Positions 3,912 to 34,417 of a stretch of 38,695 nt of DNA are shown piece by piece; position 1 is the stretch's first letter; every line of letters begins with the position of its first letter. The translations under genes and the position numbers were made by a program. This stretch comes from Pirellulales bacterium (lineage in GTDB: Bacteria > Planctomycetota > Planctomycetia > Pirellulales > Pirellulaceae), in the NCBI GenBank assembly GCA_022451045.1, contig JAKUOW010000019.1, forward strand, positions 1-38,695, read 5' to 3'. The notes under the pieces were generated by a model that was not told the origin of the DNA, did no database searches, and saw only the letters and a program-made list of their open reading frames with translations.

Positions 3912-4523
3912 ATGAAATTCATGAGCCGTTTGCTCGTCATAGTAGCCAAGCTACTCAGCGGCTACAGCGTGCGCTGGTTGGACTGTCAGCCGGACACTTG
4001 CCAGCGAATCTACTTTGCAAACCACACAAGTCATTTGGATGCACTAGTACTCTGGGCGTCATTACCGCATGATTTGCGAGCGCTTACACGGCCTGTTGCT
4101 GCCAAAGACTATTGGGAAGGTGGCCCTGTTAGGCGCCATATCGCCACATCGTTTAACGCCCTATTAATAGACCGGAAAGAGATTAAGGTACACCAAAGCC
4201 CAGTGGATCTCATGATCAGAGAAATGGGTAATACGTTTTCGCTAATAGTCTTCCCGGAAGGCGGAAGAAATTCAAGCGATGAAATGGGACGATTCAAGAG
4301 CGGACTTTATTACCTTGCTAAGAAACGGCCGGATCTCGAACTCGTACCAGTGTACCTGGACAACATGAATCGAATTCTTCCTCGAGGCGAGGTACTTCCC
4401 GTACCGTTACTCAGTTGCATCACGATTGGCGAACCGATTTGGCTGGAAAACGGCGAAGGTAAAGCGGAGTTCCTGCGACGAGCGAGACAGTCCATTATTG
4501 ATATCCGTGAAGCAACCACTTAA
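3912..4523 (+). CDS. plsC: 1-acyl-sn-glycerol-3-phosphate acyltransferase
   Basis: It transfers an acyl chain to lysophosphatidate to form phosphatidate, at the inner face of the cytoplasmic membrane. The 203-residue length fits compact PlsC proteins. The acyltransferase motif HX4D is present (NHTSHLD, His38 and Asp43), as is the substrate-binding FPEGGRN (Glu116, Arg119). A short hydrophobic N terminus (MSRLLVIVAKLL) can anchor it. It overlaps cdsA by one base (TAATG, stop 4521-4523), so the two are translationally coupled. That fits consecutive steps: PlsC makes phosphatidate and CdsA activates it with CTP. Confidence 0.9.
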   Translation: MKFMSRLLVIVAKLLSGYSVRWLDCQPDTCQRIYFANHTSHLDALVLWASLPHDLRALTRPVAAKDYWEGGPVRRHIATSFNALLIDRKEIKVHQSPVDLMIREMGNTFSLIVFPEGGRNSSDEMGRFKSGLYYLAKKRPDLELVPVYLDNMNRILPRGEVLPVPLLSCITIGEPIWLENGEGKAEFLRRARQSIIDIREATT

Positions 4524-5560
4524 TGCAACTCATTCCTAACAATCTGATAGGGTTCTTCCAGGAACCACTCGAATCGCTTAGCGGCGTGCTAGATAATACG
4601 AGTCTATTACTGCTGATCAGTTGCGTGCTTGGGCTGTTGCTCATCGCGTCCTTCATTGGCAGGATGCTGGAACGGCAAACGGATGACCGAGTCAATATAG
4701 CCGTTGTTCGCGCTTTTAATCATCGCATCCGCGCGTGGTGGTTGATGATCGCCATCTTGGTTGTCGGTTTCGTCACCGGCAACACATGCACCGTTATACT
4801 TTTCGGTTTAATCTCTTTCTGGGCACTGCGTGAGTTCATCACGATGACGCCTACGCGCCGAAGTGATCATCGAGCACTCTTCTGGAGTTTTTTCATTATC
4901 ACTCCGCTCCAGTTCGTCATGGTTGGCATGGAAAAATATGGCCTGTTTTCAACCATCATCCCTGTCTATGCATCACTCCTAATCCCTGCGCGCATTGCTG
5001 TCTCCAATGACCAAAAGCAGTTTTTAGAACGTTCTGCCAAAATACAACTGGCATTACTGATCTGCGTCTATGCACTGAGCTTCGCCCCGGCAACTCTATA
5101 TTTAGACTTATCGAATTCTCACAACGAGGATGTACGACCGGAAGGACTTCTATTCTTCTTTGTCCTGATTACACAACTAAATGACATATTCCAATACGGC
5201 TGGGGCAAACTGCTGGGCGATCGCAGGGTTATCGCACCGAATATCAACGCTCGTCGTAGTTGGGAAGGATTCATCGGTGGAGCAGCCACAACAACATTAG
5301 TCGGAGCGCTGCTTCACTCTGTTACTCCATTCGAATACTGGCAAGCGGCATTGCTTTCATTAGTCGTCGCTATCATGGGTTTTTTTGGTGGCATGGTCAT
5401 GTCTGCCATAAAGCGCGACCGGGGTGTGAGTGATTTCGGCACATTAGTACAAGGGCATGCTGGAGTTCTGGATCGAATTGACTCCATGTGTTTCGCTGCA
5501 CCGATCTTCTACCATGTCGCCAAGGCAATACTGGAGCACTCTGACAAAGTCACTGGGTAA
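4523..5560 (+). CDS. cdsA: Phosphatidate cytidylyltransferase
   Basis: It makes CDP-diacylglycerol from phosphatidate and CTP, the branch point to all phospholipid head groups. The 345-residue protein has roughly eight hydrophobic membrane segments. The C-terminal CTP-transferase signature is recognisable: KRDRGVSDFGTLVQGHAGVL followed by DRID. The usual K-D pair is S-D here, while H-x-G and DRxD are kept. An upstream conserved RRSWEGFIGG loop is also present. ATG 4523 overlaps the plsC stop. The length is at the long end for CdsA because of N-terminal membrane segments. Confidence 0.9.
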   Translation: MQLIPNNLIGFFQEPLESLSGVLDNTSLLLLISCVLGLLLIASFIGRMLERQTDDRVNIAVVRAFNHRIRAWWLMIAILVVGFVTGNTCTVILFGLISFWALREFITMTPTRRSDHRALFWSFFIITPLQFVMVGMEKYGLFSTIIPVYASLLIPARIAVSNDQKQFLERSAKIQLALLICVYALSFAPATLYLDLSNSHNEDVRPEGLLFFFVLITQLNDIFQYGWGKLLGDRRVIAPNINARRSWEGFIGGAATTTLVGALLHSVTPFEYWQAALLSLVVAIMGFFGGMVMSAIKRDRGVSDFGTLVQGHAGVLDRIDSMCFAAPIFYHVAKAILEHSDKVTG

Positions 5561-5682
5561 AGCAATTAGCTGTGAGCGTCATTGTCAGGAAATGGGTAAG
5601 GCGATTATCCTAAAGGACTAACCAACTCAGATTTCTAAGTCACTAATCACGGTATCACAAGAACAAATAGGAAACGCATCTC

Positions 5683-6420
5683 ATGGGATTGTTCGAAGGC
5701 AAAAAAGGTCTAATCGTAGGCGTAGCGAATGACCGAAGTATCGCTTGGGCAATAGCACGCACGATCATGGAAGAAGGCGGTGAATGCGGATTCACCTATC
5801 TACCTGACCGTGAAGACGACGAAAAGCAAAAGAATCGCCGTCGCGTCGAAAAATGCACAAGAGACTATCCGGAACAAACCAAGTTTCTTGTCCCGATGAA
5901 TGTTGCAGACGACGAGAACATTAAGCAAGCCATCGACAAGACCGTTGAAGAATTTGGAAAGATTGATTTTCTGCTTCACAGCGTGGCATTCGCAGATCGT
6001 GATGATCTAAGTCGCGATACCATTGAAACGAGTCGAGAAGGCTTCAAGATGGCAATGGAAATTAGCGCTTACAGCCTGATTGCCATCGCCAATGCGGCCA
6101 AAGGCATTTTCAACGAGAACGCCAGTGTCCGCTACCTGTCTCATGATCTCGGTCCGCAGGGTATCAGAGTCAACGCCGTCAGTGCCGGACCACTGAAGAC
6201 ACTAGCTGGTTCGGCAGCAGGTGTTGGTCCGATGCTTCAAATGTACGAACACATGGCACCGCTGGCCCGAAACATCACACATGAAGAAGTCGGTAGAACT
6301 GGTGCATTTCTACTCTCAGATTTTTCCGATGGTATCACTGGCGAAATCCTCCACATCGATGGTGGTTACAACATCATGGGACATCCAGGTCGTCTACTAG
6401 ATAAACTCGAAACCGAATAA
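5683..6420 (+). CDS. fabI: Enoyl-[acyl-carrier-protein] reductase FabI with apparent deletion of the catalytic Tyr-Lys segment
   Basis: FabI reduces the trans-2 double bond of enoyl-ACP with NAD(P)H in fatty-acid elongation. The fold is clear: the N-terminal cofactor loop GVANDRSIAWAIA, the HSVAFA strand, the C-terminal LGPQGIRVNAVSAGP segment and HIDGGYNIMG. Between AAKGIF and ASVRYLSHDLG, however, about 30 residues found in FabI are absent. That block normally holds the second active-site Tyr and the Y-x6-K catalytic Tyr/Lys (YNxMGxAK in E. coli). The junction is at residues 143-147 (6109-6123), in frame, giving 245 aa against roughly 260-275 expected. A good SD (AGGAAA, about 5670-5675) precedes ATG 5683. 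As written the enzyme should be inactive. It may be a decayed paralog, a repurposed binding protein or an assembly deletion. Confidence 0.85.
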   Translation: MGLFEGKKGLIVGVANDRSIAWAIARTIMEEGGECGFTYLPDREDDEKQKNRRRVEKCTRDYPEQTKFLVPMNVADDENIKQAIDKTVEEFGKIDFLLHSVAFADRDDLSRDTIETSREGFKMAMEISAYSLIAIANAAKGIFNENASVRYLSHDLGPQGIRVNAVSAGPLKTLAGSAAGVGPMLQMYEHMAPLARNITHEEVGRTGAFLLSDFSDGITGEILHIDGGYNIMGHPGRLLDKLETE

Positions 6421-6447
6421 CACATCGGTGATTTGGTAAGTCCAGCC

Positions 6448-6843
6448 ATGCCCGGAATAACAGAGATAGCCATCGCGATCGTTGAGAACGATGGCTTGAT
6501 TCTGGCTGGACCACGACCAATCGATAAACCACTTGGAGGACTCTGGGAATTCCCGGGGGGCAAAGTAGAAGGCACCGAATCCGTCGAAGAGGCTGCCGTT
6601 CGCGAATGCCATGAAGAAACGGGAATCGATGTGACAACTGAGTCCATCGTCTTAGTTCATGAGCACAAGTATGAACACGCGATCGTCCGTTTGCACTTTG
6701 TGAAATGTACTGTAAGCGACTCTCTTGAACCAAACTCACCATTTCAATGGCTAGAAATAGGTCGACTAGCGGAACTTGACTTCCCCGACGGAAATAAAGA
6801 AATACTCGAGTGGTTACTCCGAGGCAGCGACGAGCGGGACTAG
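6448..6843 (+). CDS. Nudix hydrolase, MutT-like
   Basis: This 131-residue protein has a complete Nudix box (GX5EX7REUXEEXGU) at about residues 38-60: GGKVEGTESVEEAAVRECHE then ETGI. It is preceded by GLWEFPGG, typical of MutT/8-oxo-dGTPase-like members. It hydrolyses nucleoside diphosphate-X compounds; oxidised dNTP sanitation is the likeliest role, but specificity cannot be read from sequence. I start at ATG 6448; an in-frame TTG at 6433 would add five residues (MVSPA). It follows fabI by 27 bp and is probably cotranscribed. It converges on the next gene with a 26-bp gap. Confidence 0.88.
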   Translation: MPGITEIAIAIVENDGLILAGPRPIDKPLGGLWEFPGGKVEGTESVEEAAVRECHEETGIDVTTESIVLVHEHKYEHAIVRLHFVKCTVSDSLEPNSPFQWLEIGRLAELDFPDGNKEILEWLLRGSDERD

Positions 6844-6869: not shown

Positions 6870-9800
6870 CTAAAACGGCAGTAGTTGATCGGGGATATGC
6901 TGTCTAAACAGGTCAAGCACATTGGTAGGTGATGCCGTATCGCCTGTCTCACGGTTCTCTTGAAGTTCATCGGGCACATTTGCAACTCTTGAGAGACCCA
7001 GCGGAACATATTGCTGCAGATACCGCGGCCAATAGCTCTGCAAGTACTCCTCACATTCAAGCAAGTTACCGTGTTCCTGAAGTGAATACACCAGAGCAAC
7101 ATCTTTAATTAGCCCATGGAATTCCTGTTGCTGGAACCAGATATCAAACACTTCCACCTGATCTATCCACACTTCACCGGCGCTCATCAGGTCGAATCCC
7201 ACGCGCAGCTCACTCAGCCCATCTTTGGGTAGATCATCGAGAATCAACACGAACCGTGACCATTTTTCACCGATGGCTGTAATATTTCTAGCTTGTTGAC
7301 CTGATTCTTTACGTCCGATTGTTCGCGGCCGGTAATAGACTTGGCCATACAGTTTACCTTCCACAGCAATCCGAAATGACGGTTGTTGAGATTCATCTGG
7401 AATCCGAACCCATGCGGACACAGCTATTCGGCCTGTAGCGGGCGGTGCAAACGGTTCACTGCGGACCCATGTCACATCACGATCTGCTGGGCGCCGATGT
7501 AGCACCAGATGTTGTTGCCCATGAAACGCATTACCGGTTTTTGTTTGAATCTTGTTCTTTGCAGATGCGTTATGAACCCATCCATTTGGGAATAAATGTG
7601 TTTGCGTTGCTTCAAATCCAGAGTTTTGAAGCACTTGCATATGCCGCGGTTGAGTGAGGTTGTTTACGCGGCGATTAACCTCCCTTATCTCTTTTTGGAT
7701 TTTTGCGGCGATGGCCTCGTCAACGGTAACTCGCACATCAGCCACTGTTGGAACACCCCGCTCAACCTTGACCGCAACAATGTCATACGGCTTTAGATCA
7801 AAACTCCACGTAGCACCAATTCGATTCCATTGAATCGATTGTCTGCCCTGAGGATTCGTTGCAAGCGGCATACGGTTTAAGCGGCTTTCCTGCTGAGCAA
7901 GCAGATTTATCCTCGCTGATGGTTCCACCTTAAGCTCAACCGCTCCCCCAACAGACCACGGTGAGTTATTCAGCAGATAGTAGTATGTTACATCGTCTAC
8001 ACGAAGCTCTCTCAGCGTGATTGGACTCTTTGCAACGGAATCCGGCAATCGTACAGTCTGAAACCGATCCTTCGGCAGTCTCTTAATCGTCTCGAACATG
8101 TCCCGTAGCGATGACTCGCTTCCAAGCGGCAACAGCCAACCACCCTGCAACAGGTGAAATGTATCTGAATTAACAAGTGATTCGATAAATGGTTTTCTCG
8201 CATCGCCATGCGTAGCAGCGAGTGTATTGATCAACCACGTATTGGCTGATCCAGCGCCAAACGGACTTACTTTATCAAAGCCCGGAAGAGATCTTGAATG
8301 AGGAGTGTGCTGGATAACAGTTGCCGACTGCATATGCGTTCCCGACCAGCGTGAGAATCTTGCATCTCGCTGAATAGCAACGTCACTCGATTGCTTAGAT
8401 AGGTCGTGAATGGGAACGCACTTGTTTGGGTGCATCCAAACAAGTGTGCTACTTGCTGGAAAGGCATTTGGCTTAATTCCTTTTTCCAACATCACTTCAT
8501 CAAACGGCACGTCAACTGCCAGACGCGGTTGCAACTGACGCTTTACGAGCGGGTCGTTGAACAATTCCCCCGGTGACAAATACAACTTAGCTCCTGCAAC
8601 CTGTTCTTGAACGGTTTCAGCGATACGCGAATAAAACTCACTTAGCTTCTGACTTCGCCAGGTTAACCACTGCTGTCGCAATTCACCGTTAATCGCCTGC
8701 ACGCTTTGTTGATGGCTCATTAGTAAATCTGTACCACCAGATTTCAAATGATTCATAAACTCGCTGACTGTTTCGGTATCCTGCCCCCAATGCGACGAAG
8801 GAAAATGGGTATAACCATTCGGCGTCATGGCGAACATAACTCCACCAAAGCTCGGATGATGTCCATAGCGGTCAACCATTTCACGTACGATATCAATCAT
8901 GGCTTTTTGCACATGAACATTAAGTGGGTTGTAATAAGGACCGAGGCCTCGGTTTGTACTGAACCTTTGATTCCAGGTTCGTCCGACACCATCGCGCAAC
9001 AGCACACCTTCCATTCCGTCGCTACTGCTTGTCAGAGCATCGAGTTGGGCCAGTGGCATGTTGAATTGGATCGATGGAACGAGCTTTAAGCCACGAGCGT
9101 CGAACATTTTGAATAGCAATTCAACGACATCTTTTTGAACAGGATCTTGACCGCTACTTAACAGAGCACCGCTTTCATACTTTGGAGTGGAGCTAATTTG
9201 GGCGGTGGGATAAAGCGTACTCCCTTCGCAAACAACAGCCACCGATGCACCGCTGTAGCCAGCATACTCCAGATAATCCGTCAGGCGTTTGCTACTGCTG
9301 TAAAACGTGTGCCAGTCATCTAAGACGGCACGCGAAATTTCGTCCAAGGCACCCGATACACCAAAGAGTTCCGGAAAGAGCGGTTTTTCCAGCATTGCCA
9401 AAACATCACGCGAGTTGATAGTGGACCGCTCGAACTGACGATTAAGATCACCAAGATTTCCAAGCACCTGCTTTACAATAACTTCCTTGAAAACCGCGGA
9501 TTTGGACGGATGGTGATTCGTAAGGAGCATCACCGGAGATTGTGTTCGTGGCCAAAATACAATGCTTTGAACCTGCTGGCCATCTGCATTGATCCATCGG
9601 GTTGAATCCTGAAAGAATCCGAAGTCACGATGTACAGGATGTAGGCTCCCGGATGCATCCGGCTCCAGAATAGAAATACCAACAGATTGCTGTATCCCCG
9701 CTGGAAGAACGACCTCCAATACATGTGGCTGATATAAGTCTTCGCAATGCAGGGGATATGATTGCCATCCACTTACACCGATAGAGGTAAATAGCTTGTT

Positions 9801-10994
9801 GTCAGATTCGGCCTTTTCCAATGCGACCCATTTTCCATTCGCTTGAGCAAGGGTTGACGTTTTACCATTACTTTGTGGTTGGATTTTGACACCTGCCAGG
9901 ACATTCAGACGGTCTAGATGATGAAGGGCATTGAACTTATCCCACCAACTAACATCCGTTGGATCAAACCGCATCACTTCAACTAACTCTGGTCGCGACT
10001 CGCTACGAGTGTGTTGAGTAGGTGCTACAACGAATTGAATGCGTCGTTGAGCGATCGGGGTTAGCCTGACAAGCGAGTCCACGAATCTACTGCTTCGCAC
10101 ACTCACGTCAATATTGTAGATTCCCGGTTTATGAGGAATCGGCACCGTCACGTTCGAAATAGTATTTCCGATTTGATTTGCAATCGTATTAAAAGCAATA
10201 CTCTGTGTATTGATTACATCACTGCTGTGATACGGCATCACGTTAACATCCAACTGGTACTGCTGGCTTGGCCGCAGGCCAATTGCATACGGTTGGACAT
10301 TCATAACGAGAGACTCACCTGGTGAGAACACCAGGTTATTGCGTTGTAGCTGCACACGGATTTGATCGCCGGGCGACCGTCGCACTTTGATTCGATTACC
10401 TTCCTCATCAATCACGCGTTGAAACGGAGTGGTGAGAATTTCGGTAACAGCCAGCTTATAGCTCACGGGATTCGTTTTTCTGGCTTCATCAACGAGTTCA
10501 ACCATTACTTTTGTATTTACCGATCCGGCAATAAACACGTCGAATCCGTCGTAGCTACGCTCACCTACGTTTTTGATAAGAATCGATGTACGTGATTCTT
10601 CGATCACAGCGGAAGAGTTAGCTTCCATGGACAACGAAGTCAGTCTGGCAAAACGACCCGATTCCAGTGACAACCGGCCAGTCCAGGACTTCGGTGCCTT
10701 GCCGCCCCACATAACACGCAGTCGCACATACAGGGTGTCTTTGTTAGCAACATTACCTTCTCCATCAAAGACTGGAGTCTTGTCGATATAGGTTGCGGGA
10801 GATGCCATAGGCGGGCCGGCTCGACCACTATTCGCACTCGACTGCATTGGCGAGACCATCGGACCAACGGTGACATCAGAATCCATTGGACTCTGGGACA
10901 TGGGACGATTCACCGGCTGTTGTGCAAAAGCAGCGTGCTGCCAGGCCAACGACGAAAGGCACAACCAAACGCACATCGAAATGCATTGGCGCAT
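6870..10994 (-). CDS. Very large secreted protein with glycosyl-hydrolase-like (TIM-barrel type) core and C-terminal jelly-roll domain
   Basis: About 1374 residues from ATG 10994, which opens directly into a signal peptide (MRQCISMCVWLCLSSLAWQ, cleavage near AFA/QQ). An in-frame TTG at 11066 would add 24 polar residues and bury the signal, so I prefer 10994; neither has a clear SD. The N-terminal third is beta-rich. The middle (about 530-1000) has the pattern of planctomycete family-10-like glycosidases, e.g. NRGLGPYYNPLNVHVQKAM and VDRYGHHPSFGGVMF. The C terminus (about 1180-1330) reads like a carbohydrate-binding jelly roll (NSGFEATQTHLFPNGW, then SAWVRIP and EVWIDQVEVFD). It is probably exported for polysaccharide binding or cleavage. 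Catalytic acids could not be assigned, so activity is uncertain. Confidence 0.72.
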   Translation of the reverse strand: MRQCISMCVWLCLSSLAWQHAAFAQQPVNRPMSQSPMDSDVTVGPMVSPMQSSANSGRAGPPMASPATYIDKTPVFDGEGNVANKDTLYVRLRVMWGGKAPKSWTGRLSLESGRFARLTSLSMEANSSAVIEESRTSILIKNVGERSYDGFDVFIAGSVNTKVMVELVDEARKTNPVSYKLAVTEILTTPFQRVIDEEGNRIKVRRSPGDQIRVQLQRNNLVFSPGESLVMNVQPYAIGLRPSQQYQLDVNVMPYHSSDVINTQSIAFNTIANQIGNTISNVTVPIPHKPGIYNIDVSVRSSRFVDSLVRLTPIAQRRIQFVVAPTQHTRSESRPELVEVMRFDPTDVSWWDKFNALHHLDRLNVLAGVKIQPQSNGKTSTLAQANGKWVALEKAESDNKLFTSIGVSGWQSYPLHCEDLYQPHVLEVVLPAGIQQSVGISILEPDASGSLHPVHRDFGFFQDSTRWINADGQQVQSIVFWPRTQSPVMLLTNHHPSKSAVFKEVIVKQVLGNLGDLNRQFERSTINSRDVLAMLEKPLFPELFGVSGALDEISRAVLDDWHTFYSSSKRLTDYLEYAGYSGASVAVVCEGSTLYPTAQISSTPKYESGALLSSGQDPVQKDVVELLFKMFDARGLKLVPSIQFNMPLAQLDALTSSSDGMEGVLLRDGVGRTWNQRFSTNRGLGPYYNPLNVHVQKAMIDIVREMVDRYGHHPSFGGVMFAMTPNGYTHFPSSHWGQDTETVSEFMNHLKSGGTDLLMSHQQSVQAINGELRQQWLTWRSQKLSEFYSRIAETVQEQVAGAKLYLSPGELFNDPLVKRQLQPRLAVDVPFDEVMLEKGIKPNAFPASSTLVWMHPNKCVPIHDLSKQSSDVAIQRDARFSRWSGTHMQSATVIQHTPHSRSLPGFDKVSPFGAGSANTWLINTLAATHGDARKPFIESLVNSDTFHLLQGGWLLPLGSESSLRDMFETIKRLPKDRFQTVRLPDSVAKSPITLRELRVDDVTYYYLLNNSPWSVGGAVELKVEPSARINLLAQQESRLNRMPLATNPQGRQSIQWNRIGATWSFDLKPYDIVAVKVERGVPTVADVRVTVDEAIAAKIQKEIREVNRRVNNLTQPRHMQVLQNSGFEATQTHLFPNGWVHNASAKNKIQTKTGNAFHGQQHLVLHRRPADRDVTWVRSEPFAPPATGRIAVSAWVRIPDESQQPSFRIAVEGKLYGQVYYRPRTIGRKESGQQARNITAIGEKWSRFVLILDDLPKDGLSELRVGFDLMSAGEVWIDQVEVFDIWFQQQEFHGLIKDVALVYSLQEHGNLLECEEYLQSYWPRYLQQYVPLGLSRVANVPDELQENRETGDTASPTNVLDLFRQHIPDQLLPF

Positions 10995-11273
10995 GAGCGG
11001 GCGCGGATCCGCGCACGATCGAGATTGGTACTCATCGAGAGTAATCAAAGGGACATCCTTGTCCAAATCAATGACATCATGTCACAACCAGAGCAGGAAT
11101 TATATCTCGTCTGGACATTTTGATACGAGAGCGATTTTCGATGTATTTCAACAATTCAAGAAACCGCTCTAGGTCAAATCACTGCAAATAGATTACCTTC
11201 TAGCATTAGCCGTGAGCGGTATTTGCCGTAACATGTGCAACTGCAAGCAAGGATGCGATGCAGTCCTATCCTC

Positions 11274-33748: not shown

Positions 33749-34417
33749 TTATGAAACATCCGTCGCTGTGTCTCGGTTCTCACTCGACTCAACGACAATA
33801 TGAACTCCACGTGATTCGTCATAACCCACAATTAGTACCGGCTGACGTGATTTAATCTCACCTTCAGTCGTAACAGCCTTGAGGATTACGTCTGAGTTAT
33901 CTTTTGGCTGTCGCACGGATACTCTCCCTACTTTCGATGAATTCACAGGCACACGTGTCATACCAGTCATATCAACAAAAGAATTCGGATCAAACTCATC
34001 AATCCTGAACCACTCCCGCATGGGATTCGTCAGGAATTTGGTCGGTAACAACGCAATAGCAGCATTTCGCAAGCTCAGCAGGGTTACGTCCCAGGTTGTT
34101 GAAGCATCTGTGTAGTGATCGAATCCCATACGCATGGCATAAGAAACGATAAACCAAAAAATTCCAAAAATAGTCAACCAAAGCATCACAGGAATCACAC
34201 CCAGATTAAGCCAACGCAGTGGCACCAGGCCGATCCCCATAAACATGTCGCCGGCATCCAATTCAGCATCTACGTCAAAATCAAAGTCGATTGCATCGAA
34301 TCCAATTCCACTGACGAGCGAAAACAACCAGTAAGCGACAATAAATAGAATCGACGATGTAGCCGGGATCAATTCACCGCTAAGCGCTGTTTCTGCGAAT
34401 TGTTTGAAAGCGTCCAT
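33749..34417 (-). CDS. YqiJ/NfeD-like membrane protein with C-terminal OB-like domain
   Basis: 222 residues with hydrophobic spans at about 19-40, 69-95 and 112-129 and a soluble C-terminal ~80-residue beta domain (MTGMTRVPVNSSKVGRVSVR) suited to an NfeD/OB fold. Such proteins sit beside flotillin-like genes and are thought to partner with them. SD AGGAA precedes ATG 34417. The gene is coupled by an 8-bp gap to the flotillin. The conserved acidic stretch DFDFDVDAELDAGD between spans 1 and 2 is unusual and faces one side of the membrane. The 209-bp upstream gap shows no gene. Confidence 0.82.
   Translation of the reverse strand: MDAFKQFAETALSGELIPATSSILFIVAYWLFSLVSGIGFDAIDFDFDVDAELDAGDMFMGIGLVPLRWLNLGVIPVMLWLTIFGIFWFIVSYAMRMGFDHYTDASTTWDVTLLSLRNAAIALLPTKFLTNPMREWFRIDEFDPNSFVDMTGMTRVPVNSSKVGRVSVRQPKDNSDVILKAVTTEGEIKSRQPVLIVGYDESRGVHIVVESSENRDTATDVS

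Follow-up and report, generated by a model that had tools for sequence, protein, structure and literature searches.

Enoyl-ACP reductases of the FabI type are NADH/NADPH-dependent members of the SDR superfamily, recognized by a catalytic Tyr-x6-Lys motif and a further Tyr that precedes it. In the enzyme of E. coli, catalytic roles have been assigned to Y156, which corresponds to the second Tyr, and to K163 (PMC9260719). The closest solved structures to the protein described here are the FabIs of Bartonella (5tf4) and Bacillus (5ycx). On both sides of a gap it belongs to the same sequence family; unlike FabI, it lacks 29 residues, including both active-site Tyr residues and the Lys.

The fabI locus and its 87-bp gap

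The analyzed stretch of DNA (the window; 38,695 bp) is contig C101 in a draft assembly (G000) that comprises 398 contigs with a total of 4.59 Mb and is 91% complete. The nearest named relatives of this genome are marine Pirellulaceae. The main reference for comparisons was Rhodopirellula sp. SAT12 (G001), a metagenome-assembled genome of the same genus, in which fabI (G001:C76, L058) has the same gene neighbourhood. The features of the window locus are as follows.

4523-5560, + strand: upstream gene (345 aa), intact, resembling by eye a phosphatidate cytidylyltransferase; collinear with SAT12, no indels or stops
5666-5675, + strand: purine-rich stretch (AGGAAA) 5′ of the fabI start, a possible ribosome-binding site, intact by direct reading of the sequence
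5683-6420, + strand: fabI (FabI-A; 245 aa) without the catalytic segment; FabI models match in two stretches, and the protein is 100% identical to that of SAT12 outside the gap
6120-6122, + strand: junction at which 87 bp (29 codons) are absent in the alignment with SAT12; 1-bp ambiguity (shared G)
6433-6843, + strand: downstream gene (136 aa), intact, resembling by eye a MutT/Nudix protein; collinear with SAT12, no indels or stops

NCBIfam and PDB entries for FabI cover the 245-aa protein in two stretches (residues 1 to ~150 and ~146 to 234), which bears out the proposal of an earlier note that the gene is a fabI on either side of this site (around residue 146). FabI sequence is present at both the N and the C terminus, including the cofactor-binding start (GVANDRSIAWAIA), and the segment carrying the Tyr-x6-Lys motif and the preceding Tyr is absent. 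The best NCBIfam FabI score, which covers the shortened protein alone, is 231 bits, below the cut-off of 391.

In the nucleotide alignment with SAT12, a single clean gap at 6120/6121 spans 87 bp; because one G is shared, it may also be placed at 6121/6122. Identity of the two genes is 97.1% upstream and 93.6% downstream of this gap. Exactly 29 residues are missing, among them Tyr154, Tyr164 and Lys171 (SAT12 numbering). The earlier note had described a clean in-frame deletion of about 30 residues, with both active-site Tyr residues and the catalytic Lys, in a gene whose frame, SD and downstream domain are intact; the alignment and the AGGAAA stretch agree with this description, and both flanking genes are undamaged.

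When 32 intact FabIs are aligned, four positions of the lost segment (Y154, Y164, M167 and K171) show no variation. A comparison with the FabIs of relatives, as the earlier note had proposed, found the segment kept in all 109 relative loci scanned (in which some genes are counted twice, having been retrieved with two tools) and a shortened FabI in none of them, and 58 of the 59 relatives contain a FabI-A match. The missing segment, together with the invariance of Y154, Y164 and K171, supports the predicted lack of catalysis: the known mechanism is excluded because its catalytic residues are missing and, judged by its sequence, the 245-aa product cannot be a working enoyl-ACP reductase.

Selection on fabI and the origin of the gap

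Outside the gap, fabI differs from its SAT12 counterpart by 16 synonymous changes and no replacement (dN 0, dS 0.103). With random change, ~77% of the differences would be expected to be replacements, and the probability of finding none in 16 is ~5e-11. The gene was therefore needed until very recently; as indicated by this comparison, strong purifying selection acted on it throughout almost all of the time since the two lineages split. Any loss of function must either be unreal, have happened very recently or affect just part of the population. An old pseudogene is ruled out by the dN of 0 and by the absence of stops and frameshifts. Synonymous differences are in slight excess near the junction (P 0.02-0.05, uncorrected), a weak signal that was set aside as evidence.

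Since the gene is otherwise free of decay, a new kind of enzyme is a less likely explanation than a fault in the assembly, a variant carried by a minority, or a break of very recent date. We infer an origin of the gap in the assembly, in the library or in a minority of molecules, and we favor, with some reservation, the reading that it misdescribes the living population, either because the library or the draft assembly contains a chimera or a misjoin, or because the sequence stems from a minority deletion molecule; the cells of the population would then keep an intact fabI. The earlier note had listed a loss of ~90 bp in the assembly among its alternatives. This explanation draws support from (i) the flanks of fabI, which carry no replacements despite their synonymous divergence, (ii) the conservation of FabI-A, of its catalytic segment and of the four invariant residues among relatives, and (iii) the nature of the source, a fragmented draft in which scaffolds are joined elsewhere by runs of 10 N, and which is the only assembly from which the gap is known. 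If this is correct, a new enzyme should not be concluded from a single draft genome in which an active site is lost cleanly, in frame and without repeats.

Several observations count against an artefact. The window is otherwise clean, with no N, and its 22 other genes show neither frameshifts nor stops relative to SAT12. The ends of the gap share 1 bp, and there is no repeat that might explain a misjoin. The gap is in frame, although this is expected in one of three cases by chance, and a second FabI-type protein, described below, could make a real loss tolerable. Nor is there a general excess of deletions in the source genome. In a 210-kb sample of its alignment with SAT12 (~95.4% identity), on which the base rate of deletions rests, we counted 76 indels, including three deletions of at least 20 bp in the source genome. 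The fabI gap is one of these and the sole one inside a conserved gene, and the second (31 bp) lies in or near a 107-aa ORF; a generally deletion-prone assembly is thus unsupported.

Three further candidate origins were rejected: (i) repeat-mediated deletion or repeat collapse, made unlikely by the mere single bp that the two ends of the gap have in common, (ii) polymerase skipping at a strong hairpin, the fold energy being no better than that of shuffled sequences (z 0.13), and (iii) the presence, on a different contig, of an intact copy or of the lost fragment, since a DNA search of the assembly with the SAT12 segment matched only the two window flanks, and the 87-bp segment was not found elsewhere in this assembly.

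The comparison with SAT12 yielded some minor observations. The third deletion of at least 20 bp (156 bp, a multiple of three) affects a small ORF (L155:17255; G000:C223), and SAT12 has an N at its junction. Within the window, the comparison of the 22 other genes showed one 27-bp in-frame insertion, at 10861-10891, near the N-terminus of a 1398-aa gene (6870-11066). A 222-aa gene on the minus strand (33749-34417) shows no difference from SAT12 (dS 0), whereas the dS of adjoining genes is 0.04-0.07; recent exchange or very strong constraint is possible.

Predicted structure of the shortened protein

In the SDR fold, strand beta-5 is an inner strand of the central sheet. The gap takes out this strand and roughly one half of the active-site helix, together with the catalytic Tyr and Lys, and a stable native fold of the shortened protein is therefore doubtful. 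In an AlphaFold model of the intact SAT12 FabI (pLDDT 90.0) the strand spans residues 143-153 and the helix residues 165-188; in that of the shortened protein (mean pLDDT 85.5) the strand is gone, a helix is kept at 150-159, and confidence falls below 50 at residues 147-150 and 228-234. The latter model matches FabI structures with a TM of about 0.85. Both predictions used the same family alignment, made of FabI sequences, so a FabI-like model was to be expected anyway, and this likeness was discounted as a sign of folding.

The earlier note had also considered a repurposed SDR. In this reading, the shortened protein would still be functional and use its remaining fold for binding or regulation. 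The preserved reading frame and the retention of most of the Rossmann core in the AlphaFold model are compatible with this idea, which we nevertheless regard as very improbable. It is disfavored because the flanks match the sister species in every residue and the shortening is not shared by any relative; removing a central strand and half of a helix would be expected to require compensating changes, and the predicted loss of beta-5 and the two regions of low confidence also speak against it.

FabI-B, a second FabI-type protein

The source genome encodes a second, intact FabI-type SDR of 271 aa, designated FabI-B (P0002; G000:C214:2823-3638, minus strand, L273), which shares about 32% identity with FabI-A. 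FabI models match it over its full length, below their cut-offs (best 169.6 vs 370 bits, NCBIfam), and every strong match in the PDB is to an enoyl reductase. FabI-B retains the motifs GVANRKSIA and YGFMAPVK, the latter containing the complete Tyr-x6-Lys, with Ile in place of the first Tyr of FabI. Orthologues (57-98% identity) occur in 53 of the 59 relatives and extend to part of the phylum beyond them. A tree rooted at the midpoint places these orthologues on a separate branch next to all other FabIs that were sampled (support 91/80). Between the source genome and SAT12, the dN of FabI-B is 0.011 and the dS 0.126.

The surroundings of FabI-B were inspected in relatives, since contig C214 ends just beyond the gene and the cluster is not seen in the source genome. 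The loci are listed below.

SAT12, G001:C21 (L276:8209-16949): FabI-B cluster
L281, L284 and L277: further FabI-B cluster loci

In SAT12, G003 and G031, FabI-B adjoins genes for (i) a FabZ-like dehydratase, (ii) two phytoene-desaturase-like flavoproteins, (iii) a FabF-like synthase and (iv) an OleD-like protein, the names in G003 and G031 resting on similarity clusters. The cluster also includes an ACP gene in SAT12 and G003 and an OleC-like gene in SAT12, and in G018 an OleA-like gene is adjacent to FabI-B. For Kuenenia and Desulfotalea, a similar gene mix has been proposed to direct the synthesis of polyunsaturated hydrocarbons or ladderanes (PMC2649909). Like those clusters, the one around FabI-B in relatives contains an extra FabF-type synthase, an ACP, FabZ and two phytoene-desaturase-like proteins; in Kuenenia and Desulfotalea FabI is found in unrelated clusters, whereas FabI-B lies inside its cluster, with Ole-type genes. 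This comparison, which concerns FabI-B and not the window gene, suggests that FabI-B possibly acts in a dedicated pathway of the polyunsaturated-hydrocarbon or ladderane type. FabI-B could in principle cover a loss of FabI-A, but it probably serves a specialized lipid pathway.

Other enoyl reductases were sought in the same 91%-complete assembly, as the earlier note had envisaged reliance on such an enzyme. This search revealed no second close FabI, no match to FabV (PF12241) and no convincing match to FabK (TIGR03151; best 24.8 vs a cut-off of 453.1 bits) or FabL (NF005975; best 200 vs a cut-off of 328 bits, the level of general SDRs). As a positive control for FabV, PF12241 matched in 12 of 199 genomes of the phylum. 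The suggestion found no backing from FabK, FabV or FabL in this assembly, but it may hold through the intact FabI-B.

The presence of FabI-B lends some plausibility to a real, very recent null allele, in which a spontaneous 87-bp deletion would have inactivated FabI-A in this strain, the cells surviving on the enoyl reductase activity of FabI-B. In favor of this reading, the contig around the junction is clean, the neighbouring genes are undamaged, and FabI-B is intact, keeps its Tyr-x6-Lys and matches FabI over its full length. One relative (G016; Pirellulaceae, 89% complete; G016:C279, L282) has FabI-B and no FabI-A match, a state that possibly reflects natural loss of FabI-A or an incomplete assembly. 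Both proteins are nevertheless present in 52 of the 59 relatives, and their low identity suggests different jobs. The enoyl reductase activity of FabI-B is putative, its gene lies within a specialized lipid cluster in relatives, and, given the absence of any decay in fabI, such a loss could only have happened very recently. We consider this null allele distinctly less probable than an artefact or minority molecule. Less likely still is one part of it, namely that the deletion is real and fixed, so that a free-living planctomycete without a housekeeping FabI would run its fatty acid synthesis with FabI-B, an enzyme normally tied to a specialized polyunsaturated-lipid pathway. Were the loss real, it would represent an essential enzyme being lost as a paralogue takes over, and would give FabI-B a function. 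FabI-B is a more useful by-product of this analysis than the gap in fabI: whether the gap is real or an artefact, the FabI-A/FabI-B pair of the Planctomycetia poses a testable question.
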